A stretch of 64,000 nucleotides of DNA from Earliella scabrosa (Eukaryota; Basidiomycota; Agaricomycetes; Polyporales; Polyporaceae), in NCBI GenBank assembly GCA_022605405.1, contig JABYQQ010000019.1:62001-126000 (forward strand), given 5' to 3'. The notes under the pieces are model-generated. The model worked only from the letters and a program-made list of their open reading frames with translations, ran no database searches and was not told the DNA's origin. The position numbers were made by a program, and so were the translations under genes. Shown here piece after piece: positions 43,317 to 64,000 of the stretch (position 1 is the stretch's first letter; every line of letters starts with the position of its first letter).

Positions 43317-45293
43317 AACACGACCATCAGGGAGGGCATGGTATTGTCCTTGTGCCTCCTTGTGGGTGTATTGTAGTGTACGCCGCTAAGTTATTCAAAG
43401 TAATTTGCGCCCGCGGCACGGAAAGAACGGAGGCGGTAATCGCATGAGGTCTGTACGTACAAACTCCAAGCACGAAGCAAACTGGGATTTGGATCCGGCG
43501 ATAGAATTTGGGCACCAGCATTCCGCGCGAGACCGGAACTATCGGACTCATGAGCGTGCGGCTGGAGAGAGTTGAGCCTGACGCTCCTTCTTGCGCTGAC
43601 GAGAGCTTTAAAGATTGTCGGCCAGACAGATCATCATGAGAACGGGCTAGAGCGGTCAGTTCTGTTCCTGGGACCGGGGGTAGAATCGAAGACGTGATGC
43701 CCGCCGGGGATGCAACTTGCCATGCGTGGCACGGCAGTAATCGCGCGGTGAATGCTGCCCTGGACGCATAGGAGTCGGCGAGCAAAAAGTCTTGAAAAAC
43801 GTGTACTTGAGGGGTTCCAGAAGGTTTTGCCAGGTTTCAATAGGTAGTATGCGTAGGGAAGGCAAGTGTACATGGGGCACCCACGGAGCGCCCGAGCGGA
43901 TCAAAACCGATTATGTAATAGCGCGCAAACTCTCAACGTTCAACGTTCAACGTTGCAAAATGGACATATGTCCGCGGCTATTGCATTTCTGTCCATATCG
44001 ATTAGCCATCTGTCCGCCCGACCTGCAGTTGCTCCACTACCCCTCCTATCCCCTCCAAATTTCGTGTGTATGCACTTTCAGCCCCCCTCAGTCCAGCAAA
44101 ATTATTATTTTCACGCCGATCTCTTTCGTCCGTCCTCGTGGTCCCTCGAATGCTTTGCCCTCCCACCGGCGCCTAACCGCCTATATATGGTAAAACCCCG
44201 CCCAGCCCCTTCCGGCGCTCTACGCCCACTGCCATCGGCCTTCTCGCAGTCCGTACGGCGCCTCACCTGTCCTTTCGGATTTTTCGGACTCGCTCGTCGC
44301 CCAGTAGCGCTCACTCTCCGGCGCTCTCCTCCACACCCTATTTGTTTCTATTTACCCTCTCCTTACCACTCAAACGCCTGGCCGTTCAACCCGCAGCGCC
44401 CTCTGGCGCTGCTGTCCTCCCACGTCAAGCGCCCCATCACCTTCCTTTCGCCCCCTCTAGTCATCCACCATCCCACTCCATACTCACAACCTCAGCATCC
44501 TGCTCACTCTCCCTTAGCGAGTCGCTATCACTACCGCTTCGCTCTCAACTCCCCACCTCCGCCTGTCTTCCGGGCCCCTTACACCCCGTCCATCCAATGC
44601 ACCCATAACATCGTAGCTCCCTCCTCCGATCGCATCACGTCCACATCGCTGACCTCCCTTCAAGTGCCCTCGGCCTTCGTTGACCACATACTACGCTCAC
44701 GTTTCCCAACTCGACGTCTTCCCTCTCACTCGACTCCCAGCCTTCTGACGCAATCCCTTCTTCTTATGCTACACTAGTAGCACGTCCTCCTCGTCACACT
44801 TATCCCTTACTCAGTACGCCTTTCCTTACCTGCCCCTCACACTGCTGTAGCAACGGTTGTACCACCCATTGTATCTCAATGCCAGCGCTCCTCGCTCCCG
44901 TGCCTGCAAGCTCATGTCAACCTCGCGCCACGTCAATATCTCTCCAAACCGGTCGTCCTCTCCAATCCCCTCGCAGCCTGCGTATCGTGTGGACACTGAG
45001 GCCGCAGTCTTCTCAGGTGCGTATCTCCGTGGCTCTCCCCGATCACACCGTGTATCCTACAACGCCCCCATCCATCGCAGTCTGCTCATTCCGCCGACGT
45101 CTCTCTTCCACCAACCCCACCCGTCTTCCATCTCCTCTCTATCCCGTGTCTGTTCAAGCCTTTTGTAGTCCCCCCTTCCCTTGTTCGCCTCCTCCCCATC
45201 TGTACGTTGTCCTCCTTTCATCACCAGATATCTCACTTTCACCCCGTTCACATTACCATGCTCGCTGTGTATAGACATTGTCCGCTCTTCCTA
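43317..45293. other. Intergenic, strongly pyrimidine-rich plus strand
   Basis: From about 43,980 to 45,290 the plus strand is dominated by C and T, giving long Pro/Ser/Leu-rich pseudo-frames such as 43,866-44,777. A TATA-like CTATATATGG at 44,181-44,190 precedes the densest part. CAACGTT occurs three times in tandem at 43,934-43,954. No protein family is recognised. The tract lies 3' of the long transposase-fusion gene and could be its trailer, an unrecognised promoter with a long leader, or the end of the element. Confidence 0.4.
43934..43954. repeat. Tandem 7-bp repeat (CAACGTT x3)
   Basis: Three perfect head-to-tail copies of CAACGTT. Confidence 0.85.
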
Positions 45294-48200
45294 CTACACG
45301 AAATGTCCATACGGGCATCGATATACAATGCGCTCTCTGGGGCTCATCGCCACAATGCTCCAGAACCAGTGCTCGTGCTGCACCCTATCCGCTCCGTCGA
45401 GTGATGGGTAATCCCGACCATACCTTGCGCATACCCAGCTCGGTATGTCCCGTGGCCGTCCCGCAAGGTGTCGCGCCCTCAGCTGCAGTAGCTCGAATGA
45501 CAACGGGCAGGACGACCCGAAGTGCGGCCATCCTCTTTGCACCGGAGTTGCCAAGATCGCCTGCCACAGGGCCTTGCCCTCCATATCGTCGTCCGCCTCT
45601 TCGTCGCTCACCATGTCTGCTTCGTCCTCCCTGATGCGCTCCATGGTTTTGCCTGGGCCACCGCGCTCGACCGCCAGATCTTCCTCACCGTCTGACTCCT
45701 CCTCTTCGTCGTCCAGCCGATAGCCTTCCTGCTCCGCGCTCAGCTCGAATTCCAGGTGACAAGCGCTCCTGATTAACCGGCGGCGGCGCACGTTCTCCAA
45801 GGAGTCCACCGGTCCCAAGCATTGCCTGTGGTACCACCGCGCGCACGGCTCGCAATACAATAGGACGTCCCGCTCCGGCTCATATCTTCGATCCACAGCG
45901 CAGAGACCGTCGTCTCGGCACACCTCGTTCGCCGTCAGCTGGGTCTCTTGTCAGACCATTATCTGGTAGCATTCTCAAAATACCACTCACCGTCTGCACT
46001 CGGCATTCCCGTGAGGCCTCCATCTGCATAGTGAATGCCAGCCACACCGTCGTCGACCACCACGCCGTCCTGTTCGTTCCCCCTTGAAAGACAGTGTCGT
46101 GCGGCTCAAGGCACACTGCGCGCACCTCGTCACGCACTGCGTCCTGCGGTAGGTCAGACACTATATCTGTCCATACGAGCTGCCTCTCTCCCCAGACTAT
46201 TGCGTTCCTGCCGGTATTCCCGCGCAGCGCGCACTGCGCCTCCCTGTTCTTGAGGCTCCCGCATGCGATCACCAGTCGAACTTTTGCTGACGAGTTCTAC
46301 CACCCCCTTTCAGGGTCTCCCTCCATTTTCATGGTCTTTTGACAAACTCACCTCGTTCTCTACGTCTTCGACCAAACCCAGCGGTTCCTCTTGTCCCAAC
46401 ACCATCCATTGGCATGTCTCCCAACGATAGCTGCCCGTCGTCAGTTCGATGCCACCTTCGCCCAAGTCATACCACACCTACATCGCGCCTTTCTTAATCC
46501 CTCCCCCTGTCACCCCAGTCCCTTAACCAACATATCATCCTCCACGTACGATGAGTAACACTCACCACTCGCCCCATCGGCCTCCCTCCCAGTCTCCTCC
46601 TGCCACCTTCGGCCATGATGCGGGTTTGCGCTTCGCCTGTTTTGCCTGTAGGCACGCGTCTTTCCCTTGCCTGAGGTCTGCATGGTTCGGAGTACGAGGT
46701 CTTCCCGCCAATGTGACAGCGTATGGTACAGCAGGGGACGGAACAAGGCAGTTCGTGGACCACACCCAGAATCTGATGCGCAGCCATGTTGCGGTCGGCT
46801 CCCCGCCATCTTCCCACATATGCGATGTGGCACGCTCCGTCCATCCCTCGACGTTCAATTCGGGCGAATCCATATTCAACTTGAACATAATACAGGAGGT
46901 TCTACCGTAGGTCCGGGAACTATGATCCGATGCGTATCTACCAAGTCTAGCTGCCACCCCTTCTCGTATGCTTTCCACACCTGTTCATACCTCGATACTG
47001 GACGTCTGATCCTGTTGTCGGCCACCGCTTGCTCGACGTCATGGAGCGCGACTCCGGTGTAGTGCTCCAATGCCACGTACATGAAGAACACCTTGGCCGC
47101 GCCTCCGCACTTCAGGTGATATCGCTCAGTCGGCCCACGAATTGGTTGTCTCCGTTGCAGGATCCCGCACATCTCTGTGCACAGAGCCTCGTCCCCCGCG
47201 TCCAGCAGGTAACGGTGCTCCTTTGAGTCCCCATGTCGCTCTACCACCCGCGATGCCACGAAATCCCAAGGAAGCATGTTCGGGTTCACGTTGGGCGGCG
47301 GTGGCGACAGCTCTTCCCCCTCCTCGTCGTATCCGTGCTCCCGCAGGCACTCCTTGATTAGGCGAGAGTACAGAGGCTCCGCCTCCCAATGTCCCGCTAG
47401 GACAGCATCCAGGGCCGGTAGCGTGGCCTCGAGGACAGCCCGAAGTCCCTGCCGTCGTGGCGTGAGGTTCGCCGCATGCACCCGCCCAAGCGAACGATGC
47501 TCGAGGTCTGCCGGCCATTGCATGGGCACGATCTGTCACCTTGCTATCAGACTAGAGTCCTGCCATGACCGGTGAATGCGGCGTACCTGGGATGCCGGCA
47601 CGTATTCGTCCCCCATTCGCTCGCATTCCTGATAGGTAAACTCTCGTTTCGACAGGAGTTTAGCCAGCGCGTGCGTATCCAATGGCGTCGGATCAGGAGC
47701 GACGTCGTCTGCGTTGTCCAACCAGAGGAGGTTGATGTCTCCTGCGACCTGCACGCGTTTCCGTTTTCCGTCGCACTTCACGATCTCAACTGGGAACGCC
47801 CGCCACGGACATCCGGGGAGGGGAGGCTCGTCTAGAACCATCATCATCCATTCTCCCTGCTGCGGACGCCGTTGACCCCTGTTGCACATAAAGTCAGCAC
47901 AATCTCCATCTCCACATACCGCAAACTTACTTCTTCGTTCGCGCAGACGTCCTGCCTTGAGATACGCAGCTGGCACTCTGAGACCCTCTGGACACCGCTG
48001 CTGAGACGTTCGTCAGCCGCACTGGGCTTGCCGCCTGCCCTGCGCGCCCTCCTTCACGTCGTGATCTGGGCCCCGACGAGATAGAAGCGGTCGGGACCAC
48101 CGGGACCCCAGCGCCGCTAAGGCGGGAAGAACGACGCGCACTTGTCGGGGCTGTTACCGGGGTGGGTTCTTCGGGGACGCCTTGTCCACTCAACCTCATC

Positions 48201-51200
48201 GAACGCCGCGATGGCGGCGGACGTGGAATGTCCCGCCGTTTCCTTCCCAATCGCGACGGAGGCCTGAGTTCGGCAGTGGGAAGGCGCGCACTGTTATCCT
48301 CGCGTTCTTCCCCCTGTAGTCATAATTAGTGAGGGTTGATCAATCAGACCTGACGTTCTACGTACCTCTGAGGCCCTCATCTCCACGACACCCGACGTCT
48401 CGACCTCCACCTGATCCTGGATGGCTCTGGGTGACCTCTTCTCTGACCGCTCAATGTCATCACGCCGCGCGCTTCGTTCGTCCTCACGCTGTGCCCCCTT
48501 CGAGGACTCCTGGCTCGGAGCGGGTTCGATCGGCTGACGCCGTGCCGCCATCGAAGACTCCTCGCTCGTAGCCGGTTCGATTGGCTCCACGGTCATCTCG
48601 TGCTCCCCGCACGATGTCGTCCCCGGGGCCACATATTGCTGTCTGCTTGGTACTGACGTCTCATCGGCATGCTCGCTCTCAAAAGCTTCGCGCGTGGGGC
48701 CTCCGCTCTGGTCCTCGATCCGTCCCGCGTGCATGTTGACCTCGACGGACTCCGTCAGCCCCACGACGTGCACCGATGAACCCACCGCTCTTTCAGACGT
48801 CTGTTAGCCAGTTCAGGCTTCATCAGCATCCCTCACTATAGTGCTCACGGCTCATACTCACCGCAGTCTGCTTCGCGCGCGGCAACTGTGTCGCCCTGAC
48901 AGCGCCTGCCGCGTTCTCGGGCCTGTCGCCTTCGTCGCTGGGATCGGGGGCTTCCGCTGCGGTCGTCTCATGCTTGGCTGCGTCGCCAGGGTGGGGGTCT
49001 TCCGCTGCGGTCGACTCATGCGTCGTCGGAATATGTAGGCTTTCCATCAGTCGCAAAACGAGATTCTCCATTAGCTTCTGGGCCTGCGCGGGGTCGAACT
49101 GAAAGTCGTCGCGTTCAGGAGCTCGGCCGCAAACGACTTCCATGATGAACTTGATCATATACACTCCGCACCACAGCGTCTGTCCTTGCGTGGGTACCGT
49201 TGGCTGGGTTAGAATGCGTTAGTAACAGCACTTGAGCGCGGTGGCCCAACCTAATTCCTGCGATCATACGCACCCGGGACGCTGGAGTGAGTTCGGCAGT
49301 CCATCCTGCGGCTGTCAACTGTTGGTCCGCATGCCGCACGCGGTATTCAAATTGCAGCATCTTGAACACCCGCTACAGACCATGAACGTCAGTCCGTGTT
49401 CTGTCTTAATGTCCTAGGCACAACATGACTCACCCCGTATACTGCCTTGGCTCGTGTCACGCTAGGCAGGCTGTCGTATACCACAATCTTCTTAGATGTC
49501 ATGTGCACGACCACACAAAGCCAGTGGCTGTCGCTCTTCCAGTAAATTGGAAGGATGAGCACGTCCAATGCGAAGACGTTCTTTGTAGCCATACAGGAGC
49601 TTGTCAGCATTTCATCCTGCCGTCGTTTATCGATAAACTCACCTCCTTGAACCACACTCCGGCTTTCATTCGTCGCGGTCCAGGTGCTAAGCCCTCGTCG
49701 CCTATGTTGCGCACGGGGGCTTTCATCAACACTGACAGGATCGACTGGGGGGCGATCAGTAATCGGTCGGGCCTAGGCCGTGAAATCGCCGGCGACAGCC
49801 CGAAGGCTTCGTCCCATTCGCCGGCCGCGAGATCATTCATGGGCCCAGCTAGAAGGGCGTCCACAAGAAACGTGGACATCCCTTCGCCTCTCCACAAAAT
49901 TTCGACGGCCTCGCGCTGGAACTTCTCTCGACCCATCTCCCACCATGTCTTCTCGTTGCAGAGACGGAAACACTGCAGCTTCTCGCGGATATCCGGGCGT
50001 TCCTGCATGGTGGTTCGCTTGCGGACAGGCGCGGGCATCTCGGAGTATTCGCCCAGGCGAGCTGGTGCGTCATGTATTCAGCGGGGTCGCACCCATAGGA
50101 GAAATCTGCACGCTTACCCTCAGGCGTCAACGCCGGAACCGGTTGAGTAGGATGGAAGCCCATCTCGGGGCCAGAGCTGTTCCCTGCAGCAGCAGTATTC
50201 AGCTCCGTGGTCGCCCCTTGGCTCACAGGCCGTTGAGAGAACTGCGGGGGATGTCCGGTGTCAGTCTCGCTCTGCCTTGCGACATCGTCGTTGGGATCAC
50301 AAACCACGGTCGGCAGGTCATCCCAATCAATCTCCGTCTCGTAATCCCCGAACCATTCACGTAACACCTCTATCTGTAGGCCTTCCTGGTCGCCCACATA
50401 CGACGTCCATATGGCCATCAACACGTCTCGAAGGTCTTCTGGACTTAGGTCGCCGAATCCGTCTTGTTGAATGTCGATTCGCAGCAGGCGCGCCCACCCG
50501 AAGATCAAACTCCAGAACCCACATGACAATCCGTCGGTCTGCAGGCCAGTAGCGACCTCCTCCAGCGTGAACTCCTCGCTTTGCAACGTTGGATCAATGC
50601 ACTGGTTACAACATCTTCCACGTCAACCAACCCCTCGCCAAGCGTCAGAATAAGTGCTAAGTCTCACCGGTTCCTCCACTTCGCGGCTGTGTTGCTGAGC
50701 CCGATCGATCGCGGTTACAATGACATGCTGGTGGGACAGGTTCGCTGCGGTCCCCGTCGAAAGCGAGTTCCAGCGCCGGATCCTTCGGGGGCGGCAGGTC
50801 AAATCGTGCTCGACAAGCGTCCAGTGTTGGTTCTCGTGATGGAAGAATATGAAACGCGTAAGCCCAGCAGTTCGGCTGGCTACCAGATCAGGGAGACGTC
50901 CCAACCGCTTGTCACGCAACTATTCGAATGTCGGCGTTCAACATGAGCGATCCATGCTGCACGCACTGAGATTGACATCACTCACCATCTCGCATACCTC
51001 CTGCATTGTCCCACCAACACTCGCCATCGCCTCAGCAAGCGGTTCGTCGGGCGTCATCCCGAAAATAACCCCCGTTTCCCTGGCTAGATGAGACCCATTC
51101 AGGCAATCCAGGAAAAGCCATGCCTCGTCAGCCCTCAGCCAATACTCCGGATCTTGCCAACGGTCAAAACTCATTCCAGCCATAGTAAGCTCCTCCGCGA

Positions 51201-54200
51201 GATACGCGTGGTCAGGCGTTGGGCGCAAGTCCATAGTAGGCATCCTCGACGCCTCCAGGAGCGCGGTCCGTACCGCCGGGGTTCCTGGCAGTAGACTGTT
51301 CGCGCCCAGGCGAGGTTGCTTCTTTGGACCGGGTCGTCGTTGGAAGACGGGCACGTGGGGCACAGAATGGAAGCGCTTGGAGGACACTTTGCGGGAGGGG
51401 GTCGTGGGCACCGATGGGCTTCTGGTGGTGACACCTGCTCTTTTCTTCGTAGGAGTCTGGTGCTCATGCAGAGGTCTGACGTTGCGTGGGCGCCCAGGAG
51501 TGCTACCTCCCACTGCATGCAGTCAGATTCTCTGTCGTTCGAGGCATCACGCGGGAAACCTGCCCACCTGGTGCATTCTTCGGAAGTATCTCTCGCATCT
51601 TCTCCTGCTCCGCCTTCTTCGCGGCGCGGTCGTCCCGTCTCCGTAGGGCACGCCTCACCGCCTCGAGTTCTCGAGCATCTAACGCATCCGATCGCATTTT
51701 GGACTCGCGCGGCAGTCCGAGGGCCTGCTTGGTCTGCTTGCCTCTGATGACGCGACGTCCTTCCGTGTCTGTCTCGCACTCTGGGTCCCGCAGGCGCGTC
51801 AGCTACCTGCATTTGCTCGTGTCACATGGTCCACGTACCAAGCCAGCCACGCACGGAACCATTGGCCACATATAGCTCCACTGCTTTGACATGCGCACAA
51901 CGCTTGCCCGTCTGCTGGAAGTTCTTGCATTGACAATGTGCTGGGTTCAGGCGGACATCGGGAAGCGCACACCCGGCCTCTTCACCAGTGCTAGACAAAT
52001 CCGAGTGTCAGGACATGGCTATTATGGCACAATTGGACCCTTCGCGCAAGTCAACTGGGCACTTACCGTGGCGCGATGACACTGTACGCTCCCTTGCCTG
52101 CTGGTTTGATGAGGTCGCTTTCCCAAATCTGGTAGGCTTGTAAGAAAAGGGCTAGCAGCTCTCGGTTCGAGCGGGAGTCGTTGGGTCGCCAGAATCGATA
52201 ATATGGGAGGAAGTCGCATAGGATGATCATTGCTAACCGGTCGAGCCTATCATGATGATATAGGTTCGGTCAGAATCCCGAGGCGAAGGGGCGTTGAGCG
52301 TACCGTTTGTTGTCCCTGTTGTCCAAGAACACCGAGTCGAACGTGCGAAATGCTCGCTCGATCCAGTTGTTCGTGTTCCACGGCCCATCTCTCGTCTGGT
52401 CCGCCGGCAGCCCTATGTCAGTGAATGCCGCTGATGAGGTATGTCAGCGCAGGCGTCGGCCCACGAAACCCTGCTGAGGAACACGCACGTATCCAGTCCG
52501 GGATGAACCAATTGGTCTCGAAGTACTCTCGCAGATACACCCACAGCTCCTGCGCACGAGCAGGCATGATCGATTTGGATGCCTTCTTCGCGACTGGCTC
52601 AGCGGGTTCAGAGTCCGAATTTGACCCCTCCGAGCCTGAGTCGTCGTCCCCGTCGGAGCCCGTCAGCACGATGTCGTGAACAGCGCGAAGGAAGCGAGCC
52701 TTGTAGGCTTCGAACTCGGATTCCACTCGGCAGCGTTGCAATAGGCGAAAGTGGTGGATGATCTTCGCCTTCACGGCTACAGGCACGCGGACAGGAGCGC
52801 CTCGGCTGCCGTTGTCGCACTCAATTCGCGTGAGAGCCTGGATGGCATGGAACTGGCACAACCTGATGCACGCATCAGGGCCGAACACTGCCAGACATCA
52901 AGTAAGCCTCCGATTGCGGGTCGTCATATGTGGTGCGCATATGCACCTTCTCTGATCGCGTGAAGTTCGGCGAGGCATTTGTCGATCATGAAGTGGGAGA
53001 CGTCGAACTGGTCCTCAGCTATCTTCGCCGCCGCCGCGCGGATTTGGGCTTCTTCGGACGCTGTGCGCGCCTCTATCGGCGAGCCTATAGCCAAGGCACC
53101 GGTCCTCTCAGTCCACGCCGACAACGTGCGAATCGGTCTTACCTGCGAGGATGTCGTTGGCGCGACGTTTAAGCCGCTCCTTGGTAGCCTGCTAGTACTG
53201 GATCAAAGTGTCGGTTCGAACATTGGCCGAAAGCAAGACGGAGCCTAAACAATGTCTTCAGTAGCTAATAGATTCACGAGTTCGGGAAATCTGACTCACC
53301 TGGCACTGCATGTTGGTTGGGTGTGACGGTGATCAGGAATGTCACGGCCGCGCGGTTCTCATTCTTGTTGCGCCAGCTCGAGTCCAGCGCCCATCCTCCG
53401 GTCCCGCCGTGAAGGATGAGGCTGTCCAGGGAGAAGTCGTCGGTGAGGCCTACGGTAAACTCCGACAGGGCGTCGTCGAGTTCAAAATCGTGCGGCGTGT
53501 GACTGAGTATATCATCGAATGACATGAGCAAACACGCCGGAGCCCATGACACGAATGTAGTCCTTACTAGTAAAGTCGAGATGGGTCTTGCTCCGCCATG
53601 ATTTGGACGGCGAATAGAGGGTTGCGGTCCAGACGCTCCCGTTGACGACATTGCTTATACATGCGTGAGATCTGCGCCGACGTTGGTCGGCGATGAACGG
53701 GTGCGGCGTAGGCGGCAGAGTGCGGTTCTTCAGTGGTCCACAACGACGCTGCCTCCAGGTTCTTCCAGGCCTGCATCACCTCTATGTCTCACGTCAGCTT
53801 CACCGAAGGTACCTACGCCGGGCATCACGAACCTTTCTTGACCGTCGACACTTTGCAGTTGTGCACGCTCAGCCTCTCATGGATCAGTAGGCGGACACGC
53901 CGGGAGGGGTTGAGATGCGTGTACTGTTCTGGGGTGGCATCCGGGTGTTGACCCCGCATCCATATCTTGGCCACGCCGAGATCGTCCGCGGTTATTTCCA
54001 CCTACACGTGCGACAGATCCATTAGCATTACCCCTCCAATGGGTCATGGATGACTCACCCGGAGCTTTACGCCGTGCGTACACCGGTCCCAGCGCGAGGG
54101 CGCGACGCCTGCGTAATCCTCCTCAGTGTCCTCTTCTTCTTCTGCCTGCCCGACCATGTCATGAACGCCGGCGCACGCGTAGTCCCATCGTAAGACCGGG

Positions 54201-54811
54201 GTCTTGTCGCGGATCGCGCGCGCCTTCTCGTCCGGCAGCAACCCACAGCCATCCTCCCATACCACGAGGAAAGGTCGCGCTCGGGCATCGACCGGGGCAT
54301 TCCCCGGATGACCAATCCAGATAATTCTGACCACCATGGTCCGTTTACTCTCCTTCGGCGCGTAGTCGTTGAGCTGGCAACCGCGGGACAAACAGTTGGG
54401 CGATTGACTCGACGTCATAGTAAACCCGGGCGGCTGGCTTACCTGCGAGTCGAACCACTGGTATAGCTCGTGGGTGGGCACCTCCGCAACCAAGGCCCAG
54501 TCTCCCGAGCGGTCTGGTTCGCCTAGGAACATTGGCAAGGACGTGCCAGCCTTCTTCTTCGGCGGCGGGCGGACCTCCTTAAATCGTTCGAAGGCCTCCA
54601 GAAGGTGCAGGGTTGTCTGTTCCGTTTGAGACAGCTCCACAGGTTTGTCGTGAGCGGGCACGTTTGCGTCGTTGTCGTTTGAGCGTGATGCAGCCCCCGT
54701 GGCAGCTGGCGGGTGAGGTGGGGGGGCTCTGAGGCTGTCATCTGGTTGACGGGCCCGGTATCGGTTGGCGGGGCGGCCGGGCCCTCGTCGTTTGTTGCCG
54801 GAGCAAGCCAT
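45294..54811 (-). CDS. Giant MULE transposase-SWIM-Ulp1-Ulp1-BAH-PHD fusion gene (one in-frame stop)
   Basis: About 26 exons join in one frame to about 2,670 codons, from MACSGNKRRGPGRPANRY to YRCPYGHFV-stop. Order and landmarks: (1) MULE-type DDE transposase with WALDSSWRNKNENRAAVTFL, HFMIDKCLAELHAI, IRLCQFHAIQAL and WNTNNWIERAFRTFD. (2) SWIM zinc finger CQC...CAH at 51,891-51,935. (3) A first Ulp1/C48-like domain, HENQHWTL then GLQTDGLSCGFW (Cys near 50,520). (4) A second, LPIYWKSDSHWLCVVV, YDSLP, then QTLWCGVYMIKFI (Cys near 49,165). (5) A linker with repeated RRS-RLSG-GVP units. (6) A PWWP-like and a conserved alpha-helical block. (7) A BAH-like block starting VWYDLGEGGIELTTGSYRW. (8) A PHD finger, CRDDGLC...YCEPCARWYHRQCL. 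An in-frame TAG at 53,192-53,194 breaks the transposase. Alternatively, two adjacent genes may be fused by my joins; a possible second start is MGSSVHVVG at 48,785. Confidence 0.72.
45294..54811 (-). mobile_element. Mutator-like (MULE) DNA transposon body with Ulp1 cargo
   Basis: The coding body of a putative class II element. The transposase has MULE-type motifs and the downstream SWIM finger common in Mutator-like elements. Carriage of Ulp1-like proteases is known from some plant MULEs. I found no convincing terminal inverted repeats or target-site duplication in 43,300-45,290 or 54,812-56,000, so the true ends are undefined. The gene may instead be a domesticated transposase. The nonsense codon suggests this copy is not autonomous. 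Confidence 0.5.
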
Positions 54812-56205
54812 GGACTGAGAGCAATCTGTTAGTGGGACGAGGCGGACGGCAGAGTGTGGCAGCCAGTGGCAAAAGCGAGGGCAGCAGAAAGAACACGCAA
54901 GCCTCTAACGATGTGCCCGCACGCCGAAGCCTCGTGCGGATAAGTTTTGTTAAATGTCCACAAGTAAGTACAGGTAAGTGCGGCACAAGTCTTTTCGTGC
55001 TTTTCCCGGGACTGGTAACGGCCTAACATTTGATGGCTATAGGATAAATGCTTAGGTCGGCCGGGCTGCAGTAGGCGAGATCCGATGGTAAGTACTTGCC
55101 TGATCTCGCTTGTGTGCTGTAGCCTGTCGGCCACCCACTGTCAGCCATGCACCACCACTCGTTTTGATTGCGTACATCGGTCTTCAACGAACCGAGAATG
55201 AAAGAACAGCAGTCTTAAAGCGCGTGACCAGCACCGTTTGCTCAGTGCTGAGCGCAACCTGTCATACTACGCTCAGGCACCCGTTGTCACACGGCGATCG
55301 CCATGCGCAAGTGTGACGTCACATTCCCGTGACTGTCGGGCGCGCGGCGGGGCGCAGTCGTCGTGCGGGCTTGGGTTGTATCGTGGCGTTGGTTCAAGTT
55401 GGATGCCAGCAGACACCTTGAAGCCCCATGCGTTGTCGCGGCTGATCACACCTCCCACTCCAGGTGCGCCGTTGCGCATGGACCACGCCTTATTCCCCAG
55501 GCCGCCATTGCAGGCCCGGGTTCATAATTCAACCATTTCCCCGGTGCGGCCGCCTGGGGCAAGCGAGTCGGCTGGCTGGTCTCAGGGTCGCCATTCCTCG
55601 CGACCAGTCTTCGCCGCATATGGAGCAAGTCTGCCAGTCGCACGACGTCATCCACAGCAAGTTGTTGGCAGACTTTAAGCTGCCAGATAAGGTGACGTTC
55701 CACCCGTCGTACTCTAAGGCGTTACTGGAGTGACGAGCTACCGCAGAGTATAGACTCGCACCCGCCTAACCTCCCCACCGACGTCGATACCTAGTGGCCT
55801 CGGGATAGCTGCCGGCCCAGCGGGTCTTGGTACTACGCAGCCCCGCGATCGAAACCATGAGGCTGAGTTTCGCCTGAAGCCAATGTACCGTCGCGGGATG
55901 CTAAGGCTCCTTTTTCTCTTCGATAATATTTGAGCTTGACGGCGCACCCGGGACAGATACCAGGGCCAAATAGTAATTCACTTGTCCGCCCGCCGGACGT
56001 TCGACCGATTTTGGGTGTATGGGGGCAGCGTCGTCCTTCCCCTGTTTTCCTCCCTACTTCTCTTCTCTTCGTCTGCGCTGTCTCTACCTCCATCGAACCT
56101 TTTTTCCAGCATCAGCTGCCGGATTACCGTTGTTCCCGTGCCTGCTTCCCTGCCCCGGTCCTGTCGAAGCCCAACGCATAAGTGGTCCCGCTGTGAACGG
56201 CGCGA
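54812..56205. other. Divergent intergenic region, giant gene / F-box gene
   Basis: About 1.4 kb holding the promoters of both divergent genes. A CT-rich tract at about 56,030-56,115 precedes the F-box start. Short open frames on both strands at 55,230-55,740 have no family signature. Confidence 0.5.
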
Positions 56206-57759
56206 GTGAGTTGTCACCGTCACGTTGAGCTCATGTTCCCCGCTGACATGTTTAGGGGGCGCGATCACCCTGCCGCACCACGGCCAGCCATGAGGTCTCC
56301 CATTGTGCTAGCTCCGACTTCGAAGACGTTCTACAACGCGCGCGTGATGCCATGGGAGCTCCTTCAGATCATCTTCGAGGAGTATGTGGTCCACACCCCC
56401 CCCTGCCCGGCTTTGGAGTCCATCACCTGCGATCATCCGCTCGTCCCTTTTCCAACGCCGCTGCGCGCCCGGCGCCGATCGGTGCTAGGATTAGTCTGCG
56501 CCCATTGGAGGAAACTCGCGAGCGAGAATTCTGCGCTTTGGCGGCATGTGGACCTTTGTCCGCACGTACGTCTCGACTCTCTACCACGCGTCCTGTTCCT
56601 TTCGCAGCAACGTACGCTCCAAATTGCTTTCCATTTCCTCGACGAGCCTACATACCCCCATTCCCGGCGCGCGTCCCTTCTTTCAACCACATCCAACTGC
56701 TCCTACCTCGACAGCGCTGTGCGGTTGTTGAGTGGCCATTCAGCGCGATGGGAGTCTATTGCCTTGTTCACCAACGACCACGAGGTGGTTGACGCGTTCA
56801 TGCAGGCTATCCAGCAAACGTCCGCCCCTCATCTGCGTCAACTTCAAGTGATCGTCAACGACGAAGAGTCCATCCGGCACACGCCACGTCCATTCATTCC
56901 CCTGTACACCTCCCTTGACCAACCCGCCGGTCTCCGCACTCTTGTCCTCCAAGGATGCGCGGTTGACTGGTCAGCCGTCGAGGCCGCTCTGTCGGGGGCC
57001 ACGACTGGCCTCGTGCTCGACACCATCATCACGGCGATCCCGGCCCCCCGTTTCCTGTCGCTCCTCGCCCGCTGCTCCACACTCAAGTCCCTCAGAATAT
57101 CGGGCATATTCTTTGGGGTGCCGCCCGGGGAGGACCTCCGTGACCACGTCTCACCCACCACTGTAGCGGGGCCCATCACCCTTCCCAGCGTAACCACCCT
57201 CTCTCTCAGCTTCATGGATGTCATCCACGCCCAGTTCTGCTGCCGCTACCTGCGCTTACCCGCGTTGAAGAATCTCCGCCTCGACTTACGATGGCAACCC
57301 CTGGACAACTATACATGGCTCCTGCAATCCCTCGCGTCCAGTCCGGCCGAGCACATCTCTTTTCAGACGATCGAAACCCTCTCAATTAGAACGATTGGCA
57401 TGGCGTACCTATCCAAGGTGCCAGTGTACTCCGCACTGTTCACCCATCTTGCCAAGGTCACCGAACTCAGCCTTGATTTTCGTACGTTAAACCCTGACTA
57501 TTGGCGGGGCTTCTTCGAGCGCACCTTAGAAGGCGCCGTTCCTCAGCTAGAACGATTGAACGTGGCGGGGTTGTCCGCCACTGATCTACAGGAGTACATT
57601 TACGCGCGTAGTTTGATCAAACTCCGCCCTCTCCAGATCGTCTTCATCTGTCGTCCTCGCGATCCTGAAATGCTTCATGCTGCCAAGTGGCTCTCATGGC
57701 TTCGCGCAAACACCATTTCCCTCACGCTCATATCTGACACATCTTACCAGTTTATCTAG
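56206..57759 (+). CDS. F-box / leucine-rich-repeat-like protein
   Basis: Single-exon ORF of 517 aa. An F-box-like segment, MPWELLQIIFEEYVVH to LVCAHWRKLASENSALWRHV, is followed by leucine-rich-repeat-like segments such as LRTLVLQGCAVDWSAVE, CSTLKSLRISGIFF, VTTLSLSFMDVI and LKNLRLDLRWQPL. This is the usual plan of Agaricomycete F-box proteins, substrate adaptors of SCF ubiquitin ligases; the target is unknown. M1 at 56,206 gives the longest product; MRSPIVL at 56,290 is a plausible alternative start because the conserved part begins later. The upstream CT-rich tract fits a fungal promoter. It is divergent from the long transposase-fusion gene; whether it is cargo or a host gene is unclear. Confidence 0.8.
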   Translation: MSCHRHVELMFPADMFRGRDHPAAPRPAMRSPIVLAPTSKTFYNARVMPWELLQIIFEEYVVHTPPCPALESITCDHPLVPFPTPLRARRRSVLGLVCAHWRKLASENSALWRHVDLCPHVRLDSLPRVLFLSQQRTLQIAFHFLDEPTYPHSRRASLLSTTSNCSYLDSAVRLLSGHSARWESIALFTNDHEVVDAFMQAIQQTSAPHLRQLQVIVNDEESIRHTPRPFIPLYTSLDQPAGLRTLVLQGCAVDWSAVEAALSGATTGLVLDTIITAIPAPRFLSLLARCSTLKSLRISGIFFGVPPGEDLRDHVSPTTVAGPITLPSVTTLSLSFMDVIHAQFCCRYLRLPALKNLRLDLRWQPLDNYTWLLQSLASSPAEHISFQTIETLSIRTIGMAYLSKVPVYSALFTHLAKVTELSLDFRTLNPDYWRGFFERTLEGAVPQLERLNVAGLSATDLQEYIYARSLIKLRPLQIVFICRPRDPEMLHAAKWLSWLRANTISLTLISDTSYQFI

Positions 57760-58295
57760 TTCTCGCTGCCGCTTGGCAGTTCTGTTAATACGTGTGATGA
57801 AGTCGTACTATAGCGCTACTCCTTCTAATCGTCGCTAGTCTCAAAGCCTCTGATATCTTCGTATAATGCTGGTTCACTCCCTTGCCTAATCGCCTTACCT
57901 CTGCCGTTTGATCACTACTACCTCTAGTCGTCCCCCTGTGTGGATCGTCAAATACGTCCGATTAATTCGTATAATGCTTGTGCTGTCGCCCTGCTAGATA
58001 CCATACCTCTACACTCTCGTAACGTCTCCCCACGGACGCTCGTTGGCCGTGGCCGTGCTCATCCAATGCGTGTTCCTACGGTCCTGGCTGTCCCGGTCTG
58101 ACGACCGCCTCTGTCCGCGGCTCTGTAGTCCCTCCGGGTTCACGTACCGCGCACTGTAGATCTCCCAAGAGCGCGCTACGAGCAGCAATCGCATTGCCAT
58201 GGGCAGAGGGACTGCTGATACTGGGTTTGGAGCTGCTCATGACTACACGCTACGCGTTACATGGTACTGGTACACAGGACGACTACTCGGGTTGT
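57760..58295. other. Convergent 3' region with a repeated 13-mer
   Basis: TTCGTATAATGCT occurs at 57,858-57,870 and again at 57,966-57,978. No coding sequence is recognised. Convergent 3' ends of the F-box gene and the dioxygenase gene. Confidence 0.5.
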
Positions 58296-60030
58296 CTACC
58301 CGCACGCCGACAATTCGGCAAGCGTGGAGAACTGCGTCACAGCCCTCTGCCACCGCTCCCAGCCGGTCTCGGCATGCTGGCCGCCGTGGGCGACGAAGCT
58401 TCGCTGGGACTGGTAGCCACACGCGCTCCACCGGAAAATCCCGCCGGCCGTGTACTGCGTGAAAGAGTATCTAGTATCCCCAGGGGCCAGCGCCACGTTA
58501 GAATGACGGAGGATGGCGGATGGGAGGAAGATGAGTGACCCGGGGGGAAACCGGATGGCGATGCCCAAGTCCCAAATGATAAGATGGCCGCCCTTATCAG
58601 GATTGAACTTGCCCAGAGCTACGATCGCGCACCACCCAGGCGCGTAGTTGAGATGGTCCGTATGTACATGTGTTGTCACATCGCCACCGAGATTGAACGT
58701 CGCGGCGGCGAACACGTTGTTGTCGAAGGGGGCCCGAAGGTGGGGGTCACGCGCTCTGAGGCCGCCAAGGACCTGTCGATATTGTTCATAAAGCCTGGGA
58801 GCAAACAACTTGAATGAAGCTAACGAGCAACCCAATGGCATCGTCAATGTATGATCGTCATGAGCAGCAAGATTGTAGCTCACCGTCCACAAACCCTGAG
58901 AGACGAATAAAGGTTGGATGGGTCAGGATTCGGGCGACCACGGCCTTGTTGTGCGAGGTTTGGGCGACGTTGCTCACGCGCTGAAGAAGAACAAGGTGAT
59001 GAGTGCCACCGTAACTCCATGACTTGTGTGATCAAAGACCGACCTTTTGGCCGCCGCCATATGATATCCCACAAGTAATACTCGCGTAGGAGCCCCGACG
59101 CACGTTGGGGTGGCGTGCGTGGTGGTAGGTCCGGCCTTCCTTGACCATCACTTCGACAGCTTCATCGCATAGCTCCAGCCACGTAGGGTCACAGGGACGA
59201 CCTGGGGCGCTCATGAACACGCGATCCTCGTCGTCGCAGAAGACCAAAGGGTTCCTTCAGATCGAGTGAGCACGGGGTTGATCAAACAAGCCCCAGATAG
59301 AGACTCACACGCCATCCCACTCGATGATGCGGATGCCCATCGCGCGTATGTCCTCCAAAGTGTACGCCACGCGATCGGCAGGCTTCTGGCGTATAAGGCG
59401 GCCTATGAACGCGGTGCTTGCCACTGAGAACGCATCGTGGAGACGCCGGCTGAGGGGGGCGCCTCGAGAGCTGGACGCGTGCGAGGGAGCGAGGGAGGTA
59501 GCGATGGGTACCGTGGTAAGGCGTTCGAGCACTTTGAATGTGACGCTCTTGATCACACGCCCTCCTCCTGCAGGCTGACTGTTGCGATGTTTAGAGCGAT
59601 ACGCCACCCATCGCGCTTTATTGCGCGCATGCCTATTGGGTGCGGTGCGGGGAGGCACTGCGGTCTCGCGCGGGGAAGGCACTGCAGGACCACCGTCGTG
59701 GTCCTCCAGGGCCACGTCATCCTCGTCATCTGACTCGGCGACTGCCTCCCCTCTCAGCTCGTTGTCCCAGATGAGATCAAGGATGTGGCGATCTATCTGG
59801 ACGCCCGTCGCGCTGATGCTCTGGAGGGCGCATCAGTACGTACGGGGGGGCTGACGGCAAGTCCGATAACATACCATGGGGGAAGGCGCACTCGGGCGAC
59901 GGGGCGGGTGGCGAGAGTGAGAATCCTGGCAGGCGACATAAGTGTGCGGACAGAGGTGCCAATTGGGGGCATTGAGACCAACGCCTACCTTAGCGCGAGT
60001 GGGAGCCGATGGTGGAGGCACGGAGGACAT
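58296..60030 (-). CDS. TET/JBP-type 2-oxoglutarate/Fe(II) dioxygenase
   Basis: Exons join in frame from MSSVPPPSAPTRAK (60,030) through DSHSRHPPRRPSAPSPM, SISATGVQIDRHILDLIWDN, LVFCDDEDRVFMSAPGRP, SYASITCGISYGGGQK, RVSNVAQTSHNK and ASFKLFAPRLYEQYRQVL to a stop at 58,296. The double-stranded beta-helix core shows the iron triad: His and Asp in HVHTDHLNYAPGWCA and His in AILRHSNVALAPGD. The 2-oxoglutarate-binding Arg is in TRYSFTQYTAGGIFRW. The order GGHLIIWDL then IRFPPGSLIFLPSA is characteristic of fungal TET/JBP proteins. The family oxidises 5-methylcytosine or thymine in DNA, and basidiomycete copies are known to be expanded and linked to transposons (KDZ elements). All residues needed for activity are visible and no stop interrupts it. 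Start choice is moderate because the first two exons are short. Confidence 0.85.
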
Positions 60031-60958
60031 GAAGACGAAAACCTGCGCCCAAGTGTAAACGACGTCAGGTCCTGCTGCGGCCGCGGAGGGGGGGAGGAGA
60101 AGGGAGGGATAGATGCTTGTTGGCGAGAGCACGCACTGCCTCGAATGCGCGGTTTCCAGGGTCGGAGATCACGTCGCATTGCGTAGGTTAATGCGTGCAG
60201 CACACCGGACGAACCACGCGCCCTGGGATGAGCGGAGGTGGTTGGGGATGGAAGGAGGGAGAGCGAGACGGCGAGAGGGCGAGGCCGGGACGAAAGGGAC
60301 GTACCAAGGGGTGTATGGGCGCTGCTGGCTGGGCGAGGGAGAGCAGGAGGTTGAGGGAGGGAGAGAGAGCTGGGGGAAGGAGCAAAGTGAGCGGATGCGG
60401 ATGACGGATAAATAAGGAAAGGGCTGCTGCCGACCTCGTCGTTGAGAGTGATTGATGCGATGAGCGGGGCGTGGCGCAGGAGCAAAGCGCGCTGATCAAA
60501 AGAGCGGGCGAGATCGCGAGGCTCAGTTCGTAGCTTGCCAGGTCGCAACGCCGCTAGTGCCATATAGTAGGCCGGGGTGCAGACCACCCATACCGGACGG
60601 GTTGGGGGATGAAGCGGTGTTGACCCATTGCTTACTGGACGCGTGGCGACTTGGTCGGGCAGACGGGGCATGGTGTCGAGAGAGTTTCGTCGCAGAATAG
60701 ATAAGCGGGAGCCTCTGGTGCAACAGGCGAGGGGGAGGAAGAACATGAGGGTGAGGTGGGCACAGGTAGTGAACCGTGGGAAGCTTAGGGCCCACGCGAA
60801 CTCGATTATTGGGGTCACGTGCGTCCCTGGTCGCTCATGTTGATTATTGTTAAGATTCTGAAAACGAATCCCGCTTGACCGGGTGAAGCAGGGAGGCAGG
60901 CGTAGTAGCATAACGTGTAGTATGGAGACTAAGTACAAAGCCACTCGACAGCACAACC
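60031..60958. promoter_or_regulatory. Promoter region of the dioxygenase gene (CT-rich on minus strand)
   Basis: Upstream of the TET/JBP-type gene the minus strand is strongly pyrimidine-rich (about 60,110-60,500), typical of fungal core promoters. A TTATTTATC (minus) TATA-like element lies near 60,405-60,415. The 332-aa open frame here (59,985-60,983, -) is a composition artefact. Confidence 0.45.
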
Positions 60959-61942
60959 TCAGGGCGACCAAACCAACAGCCAATGGGTCATCACGACAGC
61001 CTCGTCGGGGTTATCGTTGAGGCATGATCCGCCACAAGGCCGAATGTCCATGCGCCAGCGATCATGCGTGTAAAATGGGGACCTGTAATGTGGTCGAAAG
61101 CAGCCATTGACAGCTCCTCGATCGTCAAAGCGACGGATCTGGGCATGACAGGACCACTGCGCTGCGGAGCAAACGGGGTGCCCGAGGTCGCCCCACAGAT
61201 GGCTGGCGAGACGAAGATCGAGGCCTCGGGCTTGCCATTTCTCAAGAAGCTCCGGTTCATCCTCCCGATACTTCCCGACAAGGGCCCGCTGCAGCGAAAG
61301 GAGGGTGGGGTAGCCGAACCCGAAGTGATCGGGGTGAATGAAGGCGACGAGAGCGGAGCACCATGCTCGACAGATCGGGCCCAGCGGACTGTTGAAGGAG
61401 GCACTTGTGTGAAGGGCGATCACTCCGGCGCGGGTCTTGAACCATATCACGGAGAATAGCATGCGTTCCTCCAATACGGCGGCGTCAGTGTTGGTCTCGT
61501 CCATCTTGCGCAACACGATCCCCTCCTGCTCGTCATGGAGGTGTTGGTAGGCCCGACGATGCTGTGAGCGGGAGACGTAGAGGTCGAGGGACCTTGGGCG
61601 GAAATGAAGGTGGTGAAGGAAGAAGAGGACAGCTGCCGATCCACCTATGAAAACATTGTGGTCGCGCATATGCTCGAGGAGCGCGCGAGGAAAGGGGGCG
61701 AAGGCGTGGACGATGTTGCCGAGGCGGATGTCCATCAGTCGAGCGACCGCATACACGGTCACTCTGGCGCAGCGGCGGAAGACGAGGAGATCGCGGAACT
61801 CGAGGGCGGCGCATATCTGTAGCCGGAGGACCAATGGTATCCCGCCGAAGTGAGGCTCGGGCGGGTCCAAATCGCGCGTGTAGAACCCTTCTTCATGTCT
61901 ATAGTCCGGCATCCTGGTGCAAGGGACGATGAGTGAACGCAT
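60959..61942 (-). CDS. Hypothetical protein, Agaricomycete family with possible nucleotidyltransferase-like segment
   Basis: Single-exon 327-aa ORF starting MRSLIVPCTRMPDYRHEEGF. The start of the conserved part, LVLRLQICAALEFRDLLVFR, resembles an F-box-like helix pair. It is followed by FIGGSAAVLFFLHHLHF and RPRSLDLYVSR, a Gly-Gly-Ser then Asp arrangement reminiscent of nucleotidyltransferase-fold proteins but without a proven catalytic set. The C-terminus has Cys/His-rich patches. The same plan occurs in the next gene (62,585-63,761: IVTGLAALNFLYPG then APIVDILVPRG), so the two are probably paralogues. I cannot assign a function. The segment 61,759-62,228 upstream, with several open frames, may hold an unrecognised 5' exon. 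Confidence 0.6.
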   Translation of the reverse strand: MRSLIVPCTRMPDYRHEEGFYTRDLDPPEPHFGGIPLVLRLQICAALEFRDLLVFRRCARVTVYAVARLMDIRLGNIVHAFAPFPRALLEHMRDHNVFIGGSAAVLFFLHHLHFRPRSLDLYVSRSQHRRAYQHLHDEQEGIVLRKMDETNTDAAVLEERMLFSVIWFKTRAGVIALHTSASFNSPLGPICRAWCSALVAFIHPDHFGFGYPTLLSLQRALVGKYREDEPELLEKWQARGLDLRLASHLWGDLGHPVCSAAQWSCHAQIRRFDDRGAVNGCFRPHYRSPFYTHDRWRMDIRPCGGSCLNDNPDEAVVMTHWLLVWSP

Positions 61943-62584
61943 GTAAGCAGGGGACGCGGACTGAACTGACCTGAGAATCCGCGGGCCCGGTGTGCAACGG
62001 CAAGCAGGTCAGCTCGCGAACAAGGGGGAGGCGGACTACGCGAGGGGCGGAGGCGAGGACAGGGGGATGATATGCAATCATATCCAGCGGGCACGAGCAC
62101 CTCCGGGACCTGGAAGCCCGCGCCTTGATGAAAACCCATGCATCAGCTGCTACGAGGACCATGCGGATCGACGCCGGCACAGAAATCTGATGCAGCGGAA
62201 GGCATGATGATGTACTCATCACCACCACCAGTCATGCGACCTAAAAACGACTTTGCTAGTGAACCTGATCAGCCAAGGGACAACGTGTTTTGCCCTTTGC
62301 TACTGAGCCTGATCAGCCAAGGGAGAACGAGATCGCGACAAGGCCGGGTGTTAGAGGTTGAGCACTCCACACGCGGCGGCGCGAGGGATGGCTGACGAAT
62401 GCATGATAGATAACGGGTCTACTGATGTTGCGGGCACATACAACGTACTTAGCGGGGATAGAGGGAGAGACGAGTGTGGGTGGGGACGAGGAGAAGGGCT
62501 AGGACAGTCAACGGGCACGGTAAGCTATGAATGTACGCACAGGAAGCATAGGAAGAGTATGCGAGCTTACCGTGCACGTTGAAC
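61943..62584. other. Intergenic region with a 35-bp direct repeat
   Basis: Contains the direct repeat 62,251-62,285 / 62,295-62,329 listed separately. No gene is recognised. Confidence 0.5.
62251..62329 (+). repeat. 35-bp direct repeat, period 44
   Basis: Units 62,251-62,285 and 62,295-62,329 share CTTTGCTA and CCTGATCAGCCAAGGGA and match at 32 of 35 positions. Each contains the palindrome TGATCA. Confidence 0.8.
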
Positions 62585-63761
62585 TCATCCGCTTGCCAAC
62601 AATGACCAGGCGCACGGGCGAGATCCAGCCCGCAGCTTCCTCTGATCGGCATGACAGCCCGGGGCGCAGGTCAGGCCGCCTCTCCACCAGACAGCCGTTT
62701 GCTGGGCATGTACGTCGTCCTGCCCACCAGCAGCTGGCAGTCCTTGCAGTGTGCCGAACGTACAATGGCGGTCTCGAAAGTACCGGGTAGCCGCCGCGCA
62801 CCCCGAGGAGCGAACGCCGTTACAGGGGGCGGATGGGATCCACGCGGACGAGTCGAGGCTGACGTCCCAGTGGTTGCGGTGCCAGCACCCGGCCTCAGCT
62901 CGCACCCACTCAGGAGGTGTGCGATAGTCGAATACGTCGAGATGGAGTGGGTTGACGAGGGCGCGAGACTGGCTGGACAGGGCGGGGTAGGCGATGGTGA
63001 AGGACCGGGACGATACGTAGTTAAAGAGGGCGGAGTTCCATGCGGTAGTGACGTAGTAAAGTGTGGAGTCGCCATCACACTCGCAGAGATTGAGACGCAC
63101 GCCGCCTTTGACGAGGTGGATCTGGTTGAGGACGTCTGGGAGAGGGAGCGTGGTGACGGCGGGCTGCGCGATTGGAACCTGCGTAGGCGGAACTTCCCCA
63201 GCGTGAGTGTGAGGGTTGACGGTCAATGCGACCGGAGGAGGGGAATCGGTGCTGGTGGGCACCCCGGTGGTCGGCGTGGGTGAGGCGGACTGGGATGGCT
63301 GAGAGCCTGCACAGAGACCAACACGTTAGGAAAGGCGGGCAACAGGGTTGGCTGGGGAATCGGGTAAGCGCACCCCAGGCGGGAACAGGATCTTGTAGTT
63401 TGACAAAGCCTTCAGTGCGCATGAGATAGCGGCGCATACCGGTATACTGGCCGCGGGGTACCAGAATGTCCACGATAGGTGCCTTAGGGTGGCCGGGATA
63501 GAGGAAGTTGAGCGCGGCGAGCCCAGTCACAATACACCGGTGGGCGTGAAACTTCTGCATGAAAGCATCCATGCTGTCGATGGCTGGACGGAAGATCGCG
63601 CGCCATCGGCGCAGGAGCACGGCGGTGACATACTGATCGGCCAGTTTGAAAGTGAGACGCAACCGCACGAGCGAGTCAGCATCTAGAAGGTCGACAATGG
63701 CCACGCATATGTCGTGGACGAGGGGAGGGAAAAGTGGGGGCAGAGGGGGGTGATTGGGCAT
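62585..63761 (-). CDS. Hypothetical protein, paralogue of 60,959-61,942
   Basis: Two exons joined by a GT-AG intron near 63,305-63,375. Exon 1 starts MPNHPPLPPLFPPLVHDICV, with VDLLDADSLVRLRLTFKLAD, then IVTGLAALNFLYPGH and APIVDILVPRGQYTGMRRYL. Exon 2 has GSQPSQSASPTPTTGVPTST, a Pro/Thr-rich stretch, then LPLPDVLNQIHLVKGGVRLN, FVDYRTP-like FDYRTPPEWVRAEAG and a Cys-rich tail. Stop at 62,585. It shares the F-box-like start and the Gly-Ser/Ala...Asp segment with the neighbouring gene. Function unknown. The 3' part after about 62,760 is uncertain because a second frame also looks coding there. Confidence 0.55.
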
Positions 63762-64000
63762 GGGGGTGGAGCGAGTTCAACCGGTGATGACGAGGAGCAC
63801 GTCTGGGGAAAGTTTCGGAGATCGCCGGAGCCTCGTGGCGCGAAGCCAATCTGCACAGCCACTAAGGATCGACCGCAGCGAAGGGTCGGGCCCGGGGCAA
63901 GCGATGTATAGAACAAGAGCCGGCTAATGATATGCGTATCGAGGATCAAGAGAACGGGGGCGGACGGGAGATGGGGCCAACTGGCCGCCTGGGGGGCACC
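63762..64000. other. Upstream flank of the last gene
   Basis: Probable promoter of the gene at 62,585-63,761, C/T-rich on the minus strand near 63,700-63,780. No coding feature is recognised before the window ends. Confidence 0.4.

Follow-up and report, generated by a model that had tools for sequence, protein, structure and literature searches.

In our study, a 64,000-nucleotide stretch of the Earliella scabrosa (Polyporales) genome, called the window (C19:62001-126000, C19 being the contig), was found to contain part of a giant Mutator-like element (MULE). The element starts at window position 43955, occupies 43955..64000 and continues to C19:141993 outside the window; coordinates without a contig name refer to the window. 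We put at about 70% the probability that it is a giant multi-gene Mutator-like transposon equipped with a counter-silencing kit, the function of the kit being predicted. A sequence-only reading of the window had described one long fused protein with transposase, protease and chromatin-reader domains, and had overlooked the 25-kb mobile element with its terminal inverted repeats (TIRs), target site duplications (TSDs), partner genes and TET/JBP-like gene. The genome searched in our study comprised 51.7 Mb in 48 contigs.

Ends and copies of the element

The C19 element spanned 36.0 kb, or about 25.3 kb when a nested KDZ element is subtracted. The left TSD of 9 bp was found at 43946..43954, and its second copy adjoined the right end of the element at C19:141994-142002, beyond the window. 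In the imperfect left TIR (43955..44024, plus strand), 50 of the 70 positions matched the inverted right end, 43 of them within the first 50. The copy on contig C8 was 17.3 kb long, showed 99.3% DNA identity to the C19 copy and was devoid of the region corresponding to window 50817-59303. The alignment of the two copies had common ends, at window 43955 and C19:141993 in one copy and at C8:1538193 and C8:1555489 in the other. Each of these copies, the two that were read at both ends, contained TIRs and was flanked by a different perfect 9-bp TSD. Three features of Mutator-like elements, a MULE-type DDE transposase, a TSD within 8-11 bp and TIRs, were all present. A segmental duplication or a domesticated host gene, with no transposon involved, would agree with the low copy number, the many introns and the apparent interruption of the C19 copy. 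However, the perfect 9-bp TSDs and TIRs of both fully read copies, their unrelated flanks and the presence of divergent copies across eight contigs make such an origin extremely improbable. The left end was also found at 19 loci beyond the ends of the C19 and C8 copies (41 matches overall), and these loci may be short derivatives or related elements.

Copies were defined by matches to the transposase or to the Ulp1-like protease domains encoded with it, so that copy counts are lower bounds. At least eight copies were found, on contigs C19, C8, C29, C11, C18, C1, C4, and C6. The C4 and C6 copies were more than 99.6% identical across the 13 kb compared, and their left flanks differed. If the partner open reading frames (ORFs) belong to the elements, the minimum spans are 19.7 kb in C4, 21.4 kb in C6, 21.4 kb in C29 and 25.0 kb in C18. 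The proportion of nonsynonymous differences (pN) between C19 and C29 was 0.23-0.34 and that of synonymous differences (pS) was 0.74-0.82, followed by pN of 0.33-0.47 and pS of 0.71-0.80 in the comparisons of C19 with C18 and C4. In both sets pN was lower than pS in every domain, which indicates constraint only roughly because the synonymous sites were mostly saturated between copies. The C8 rows of this comparison were set aside; UlpB (the second protease domain), for example, was 86% identical there against the DNA identity of 99.3%, probably because tblastn pieces overran into introns, and the other rows may be slightly affected. Five of the six loci with other MULE matches in the genome were compared with the window protein, none giving a match below E 0.03, and these MULE loci were taken as presumptive members of other lineages.

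The nested KDZ transposon lies just right of the window (C19:127548-138259; 10.7 kb; PF18758, 7.1e-39), with inverted ends of about 0.62 kb that are 99.8% alike and an 8-bp TSD. It is a recent insertion into the MULE. The PF18758 profile (KDZ transposase) did not match the transposase gene of the MULE itself. Two smaller insertions were also found in other copies. A 457-bp insertion with AAGGGT-like repeats, inverted ends and an 8-bp TSD (C8:1539906-1540362) interrupted the PHD gene of the C8 copy. The C6 copy contained an insertion of about 1.65 kb (C6:422208-423860) with identical direct repeats of 219 bp and a 6-bp overlap in the C4 alignment, which resembles a small long terminal repeat element.

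The transposase gene and its protein domains

The transposase gene was located at 46876..54811 on the minus strand, with 24 exons and 23 introns as deposited, and its product of 2172 amino acids (aa) ended at a TGA stop codon (46878-46876). This reading was derived from the deposited protein P0001 and the final exon of the window itself. A long reading frame as such is not new, as the fused gene was already present in the databases as the hypothetical protein P0001 of 2582 aa. The sequence-only reading had likewise joined 45294..54811 into a single frame, and our splice model of the window reproduced both limits, 54811 and 45294, on the minus strand. Comparison with relatives showed that the model was broadly correct down to about 46.9 kb and incorrect past there. 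The two proteins of Lentinus brumalis, P0002 (2190 aa) and P0003 (2183 aa), and the C18 copy (P0004) stop at the same conserved stretch. The single frame thus stood as far as the TGA codon, and the relatives indicate that both the deposited model and the sequence-only reading were spliced across this native stop. A polypeptide of 2582 aa running from the transposase through BAH and PHD domains does have an existing splice path, and the C-terminus of the deposited P0001 corresponds to the translation ending at 45294. Such a polypeptide is nevertheless very unlikely, as the native TGA is found at the position where the relatives having that region terminate, the PHD block is a gene of its own elsewhere, and the BAH profile did not match. 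The case illustrates how automatic gene models can fuse a transposase with a neighbouring gene.

The PHD block was therefore treated as a separate downstream gene (45294..46484, minus strand), with the PHD finger at about 45.79-45.89 kb and exon limits that are uncertain, above all at the 5' end. The PF00628 (PHD) match was 2e-5 and 25.0 bits for the ORF, against a cut-off of 24, and 22 bits within P0001. A standalone relative of the block with its own start, P0051 (523 aa), was found in the E. scabrosa genome; searched against the PDB sequences, it gave no match at E up to 0.1. In C29 the PHD block was found at 100860-101842, 4.7 kb beyond the transposase match, which ends at 96125. The BAH domain proposed for the same polypeptide was not recovered, as PF01426 was unmatched in both the downstream block and the C-terminal domain, in a search whose HMMER filters drop most weak matches. 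No BAH chain occurred among the 50 rows listed in the Foldseek output, which does not by itself exclude BAH. Homologues in which the block is a gene of its own, an outcome that the sequence-only reading had itself named as refuting, were thus found, and this part of the reading fails.

An in-frame TAG codon was found at 53192..53194 on the minus strand. The deposited model hides it in an intron of only 30 nucleotides (53221-53192), and P0002-P0004 read through this position; the transposase of the C19 copy is therefore probably interrupted and the copy is probably no longer autonomous.

The other part of the sequence-only reading, a MULE transposase, a SWIM finger and two Ulp1-like domains in one gene, was borne out. 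The MULE core and SWIM region (51855..54094, minus strand; aa 240 to about 790) contained D419, D505, and E668, and this D-D-E triad was present in 17 of the 18 aligned proteins. The PF10551 match was below the cut-off in the window copy (8.7e-4) and above it in the C18 copy (1.2e-7). The SWIM finger (51935-51891, minus strand) contained C765, C767, C777, and H779. The first Ulp1-like domain, UlpA (50305..51213, minus strand; aa 970-1228), contained H1077, N1096, Q1150, and C1156. It gave no match in the Pfam search and was tentatively assigned as a remote CE-clan domain. The second, UlpB (49021..50118, minus strand; aa 1291-1573), contained all four residues of the H-D-Q-C motif (H1449, D1466, Q1518, and C1524) and showed a Peptidase_C48 profile match and a SENP fold. 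The Pfam C48 domain was found in 13 of 18 related proteins, the window's own counted. The domain order was also kept in other Agaricomycetes; the H-D-Q-C motif of UlpB was present in 14 and the H-N/D-Q-C motif of UlpA in 12 of the 18 aligned proteins. UlpB thus shares the fold and the four motif residues of the SENP/Ulp1 SUMO proteases, whereas UlpA is remote from them and has Asn at the place of Asp; the SENP/Ulp1 SUMO proteases are not known to be fused to a transposase.

The C-terminal domain (46879..47862, minus strand; aa 1863-2172) was predicted to form a small beta-barrel with helices, and weakly resembles the Tudor/PWWP/MBT (Royal-family) readers, to which it is tentatively compared. 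Foldseek gave no match for this domain at E up to 0.001, and a profile search against the PDB returned nothing useful.

Other arrangements were observed in more distant relatives. P0039 of Tilletia indica, outside the Agaricomycetes, contained MULE, SWIM, and C48 in 881 aa, a simpler fusion with a single protease. The MULE relatives P0016, P0017, and P0018 of Tremella and Kwoniella showed a ubiquitin-hydrolase (UCH) match where UlpA would be, and the UlpB residues remain; the matches indicate that the type of protease has been exchanged at the UlpA position.

Partner genes of the transposase

An F-box-like gene was found at 56290..57756 on the plus strand, divergent from the transposase (PF12937, 0.0036). 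All seven of its matches in the genome, the window's included (16 candidates were scored), adjoined transposase copies, 1.5-8.4 kb upstream and on the opposite strand. C8 was the only one of the eight copies without it, and the region is deleted there. A conserved ORF at C19:139941-141260 gave 14 matches, of which eight were in the eight copies (one each), four were paralogues in C19 and C8 and two were elsewhere; in C1 its relative was on a differing strand relative to the transposase. This ORF forms one family inside the element with C19:126286-127338 and C19:138284-139462. CE-clan-like cysteine motifs were read by eye in all three, the motif Cys being retained in two and replaced by Ser in one, and Pfam gave no match. 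Two further ORFs without a Pfam match were present on the minus strand, one of 349 aa (60962..62008), belonging to a large family with 116 matches genome-wide, and one of 233 aa (63078..63776), present in the C8 copy too.

The PHD gene adjoined the C19, C8, C29, and C11 copies, and none was found near the other four. Close copies of P0051 were also observed at C1:5406.9-5409.6, C4:3.9-5.6 and C8:2196.5-2205.2 kb, at most 45 kb from contig ends, with weaker relatives at C6:16-26 kb (near a contig end) and C45:11-17 kb; those near contig ends are possibly subtelomeric.

A TET/JBP-like dioxygenase gene was found at 58296..60179 on the minus strand in our splice model, in which the start is uncertain (PF12851, 4.8e-5 and 4.6e-5). 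HTD, RHSN, and TRYSFTQ were read by eye in its frame and may represent the HxD, distal H and R of the 2-oxoglutarate/iron site. The last exon searched alone gave chance matches only. The TET-like core was present beside three of the eight copies (C19, C29, and C11), C8 contained an N-terminal remnant, and none of the 24 matches genome-wide was near C4, C6, C18, or C1. With respect to the transposase, its position and orientation were alike in C19, C29, and C11. The identity between C19 and C29 was 68% for the TET-like gene, close to the 65% of the transposase, which fits joint inheritance. In C11 the core was about 29 kb from the transposase and a second TET-like match (C11:1552245, 47%) was found in the extra DNA; the extra distance was taken as the result of later insertions. 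These placements indicate one sublineage that carries both the PHD gene and the TET-like gene, in the same relative place and strand.

The TET-like and PHD genes might instead be passengers of old KDZ insertions and not working parts of the MULE. The TET genes of Polyporales have been reported with Kyakuja (PMC12730594), a KDZ element is nested in the C19 copy itself, and the genome contains 20 strong TET-like loci, one of them the C11:1552245 match. However, the TET-like gene of the window lies outside the nested KDZ, and its counterparts in C29 and C11 agree with it in position and orientation with respect to the transposase; we regard a passenger origin as unlikely. The nested KDZ was examined as a source of the TET-like gene and rejected for this KDZ lineage only, as none of its 29 ORFs gave a match elsewhere in the element at E up to 1e-3. 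At C12:1398.6-1401.5 kb a MULE of another lineage was observed 2.1 kb from a TET-like match, and this locus is perhaps a second TET-bearing MULE lineage.

Predicted function and relation to known systems

In the favoured interpretation, a mobile element with a counter-silencing kit, the DDE core and SWIM finger would cut and paste the element, as expected from their family. The targets of UlpB, and perhaps of UlpA, would be silencing factors or the transposition complex, from which SUMO or a different ubiquitin-like tag would be removed at the element. The barrel and the PHD protein would anchor these functions on chromatin, the F-box-like protein would direct host factors to degradation, and 5-methylcytosine on the element would be oxidised by the TET-like enzyme. 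Together, these activities would let a long and conspicuous element evade silencing. Previous studies reported that the Ulp1-bearing KIU genes of plant Vandal MULEs cause hypomethylation of related elements (PMC13317346), and removal of silencing marks is the role proposed for the TET genes of fungal transposons (PMC12730594).

In the main rival explanation, the Ulp domains work for the transposition machinery itself and have no part in counter-silencing. They might process the long protein to which they belong, or they might act on the transposase complex, or on an SCF complex of the F-box-like partner, by removing SUMO, NEDD8, or ubiquitin. We consider this appreciably less probable, as in plant Vandal elements the Ulp1 domain sits in an anti-silencing protein (PMC13317346) and chromatin-type genes travel with the element.

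Several results weigh against the counter-silencing transposon that we favour. Both ends were read for only two of the eight copies (C19 and C8), and on its left side the C19 copy is flanked by a short tandem repeat, which makes the C8 TSD the stronger of the two. The Asp position of UlpA is occupied by Asn in 10 of the 12 motif-keeping proteins, so that its activity is uncertain, and the fold support for the barrel is weak. The PF12937 match reached 17.5 bits against a curated cut-off of 24.3 and the PF12851 match 23.1 bits against 34.9, and the two genes are therefore labelled F-box-like and TET/JBP-like only. The TET-like protein gave no match among PDB sequences at E up to 0.1. The conserved ORF at C19:139941-141260 is devoid of a Pfam match and, by eye, its motif Cys is a Ser in the C19 copy. 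The TET core is absent from five and the PHD gene from four of the eight copies, and the family thus needs neither.

A wider proposal, to which we give somewhat less than even odds, concerns a lineage of giant Mutators in mushrooms. This lineage would have kept as a set the transposase-tandem protease-barrel protein, an obligate F-box-like partner and one conserved gene, with TET/JBP and PHD genes in a sublineage. The set would form a self-contained anti-silencing kit directed at SUMO, ubiquitin, histone, and DNA methylation, and the lineage would be the first of the Mutators with a TET-type gene. In the open-access literature, judged by titles and abstract openings, no fungal MULE with Ulp1, no TET-bearing MULE and no giant multi-gene MULE was found among the matches listed.

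The nearest known systems are the plant transposons with ULP1, KI-MULE and Vandal KIU, which share with the E. scabrosa element the Mutator superfamily, an element-borne Ulp1 and a proposed escape from silencing (PMC13317346, PMC2528002). In some plant MULEs ULP1 is in frame with the transposase (PMC2528002), whereas the ULP domain of KI-MULEs runs opposite to mudrA, and KIU stands as its own gene in non-TIR MULEs (PMC13317346, PMC2528002). In the E. scabrosa element, two CE-clan domains and a barrel follow the transposase, TIRs are present, the size is far larger, and F-box-like, PHD, and TET-like genes occur in addition. Kyakuja, Zisupton, Plavaka, and others are likewise basidiomycete DNA transposons with a TET/JBP-type gene (Kojima, 2025; PMC12730594). 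In that survey no Mutator/MuDR lineage is named among the TET-bearing elements, and the Polyporales are represented by Kyakuja only; the E. scabrosa element differs in its MULE-type transposase and 9-bp TSD. Fungal and other MULEs share the DDE transposase, the SWIM finger in some, TSDs of 8-11 bp, and TIRs of 14-500 bp, and a PHD finger is listed for the Rehavkus outgroup (PMC6446971). The words Ulp1 and protease are absent from the main text of that source, and no comparable gene set was found there.

Giant eukaryotic transposons and Pack-MULEs are likewise large elements with extra genes (PMC6431247). However, the Pack-MULEs cited there are at most 7 kb (the full-length element) and mostly 1-2 kb, whereas the E. 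scabrosa elements span 17-25 kb and their gene order is conserved. Length is considered costly for cut-and-paste DNA transposons, and Mutators with captured sequence are usually small (PMC6431247). In the present family of 17-25 kb, divergent copies have retained the same genes next to a transposase of 2172 aa, which suggests that these genes aid persistence. A single mobile unit would combine proteases of the SUMO/ubiquitin type with an F-box-like protein, chromatin readers and an oxidase of TET-like kind, and escape from silencing would become testable one gene at a time.

An Rfam search of the window gave 0 matches. Inverted and dispersed copies, 69-76% identical and including an aldo/keto reductase gene, were found at 37.7-43.1 kb of the window and at C19:25-26, 37-39 and 73-74 kb; these stretches are a local gene cluster on one contig.

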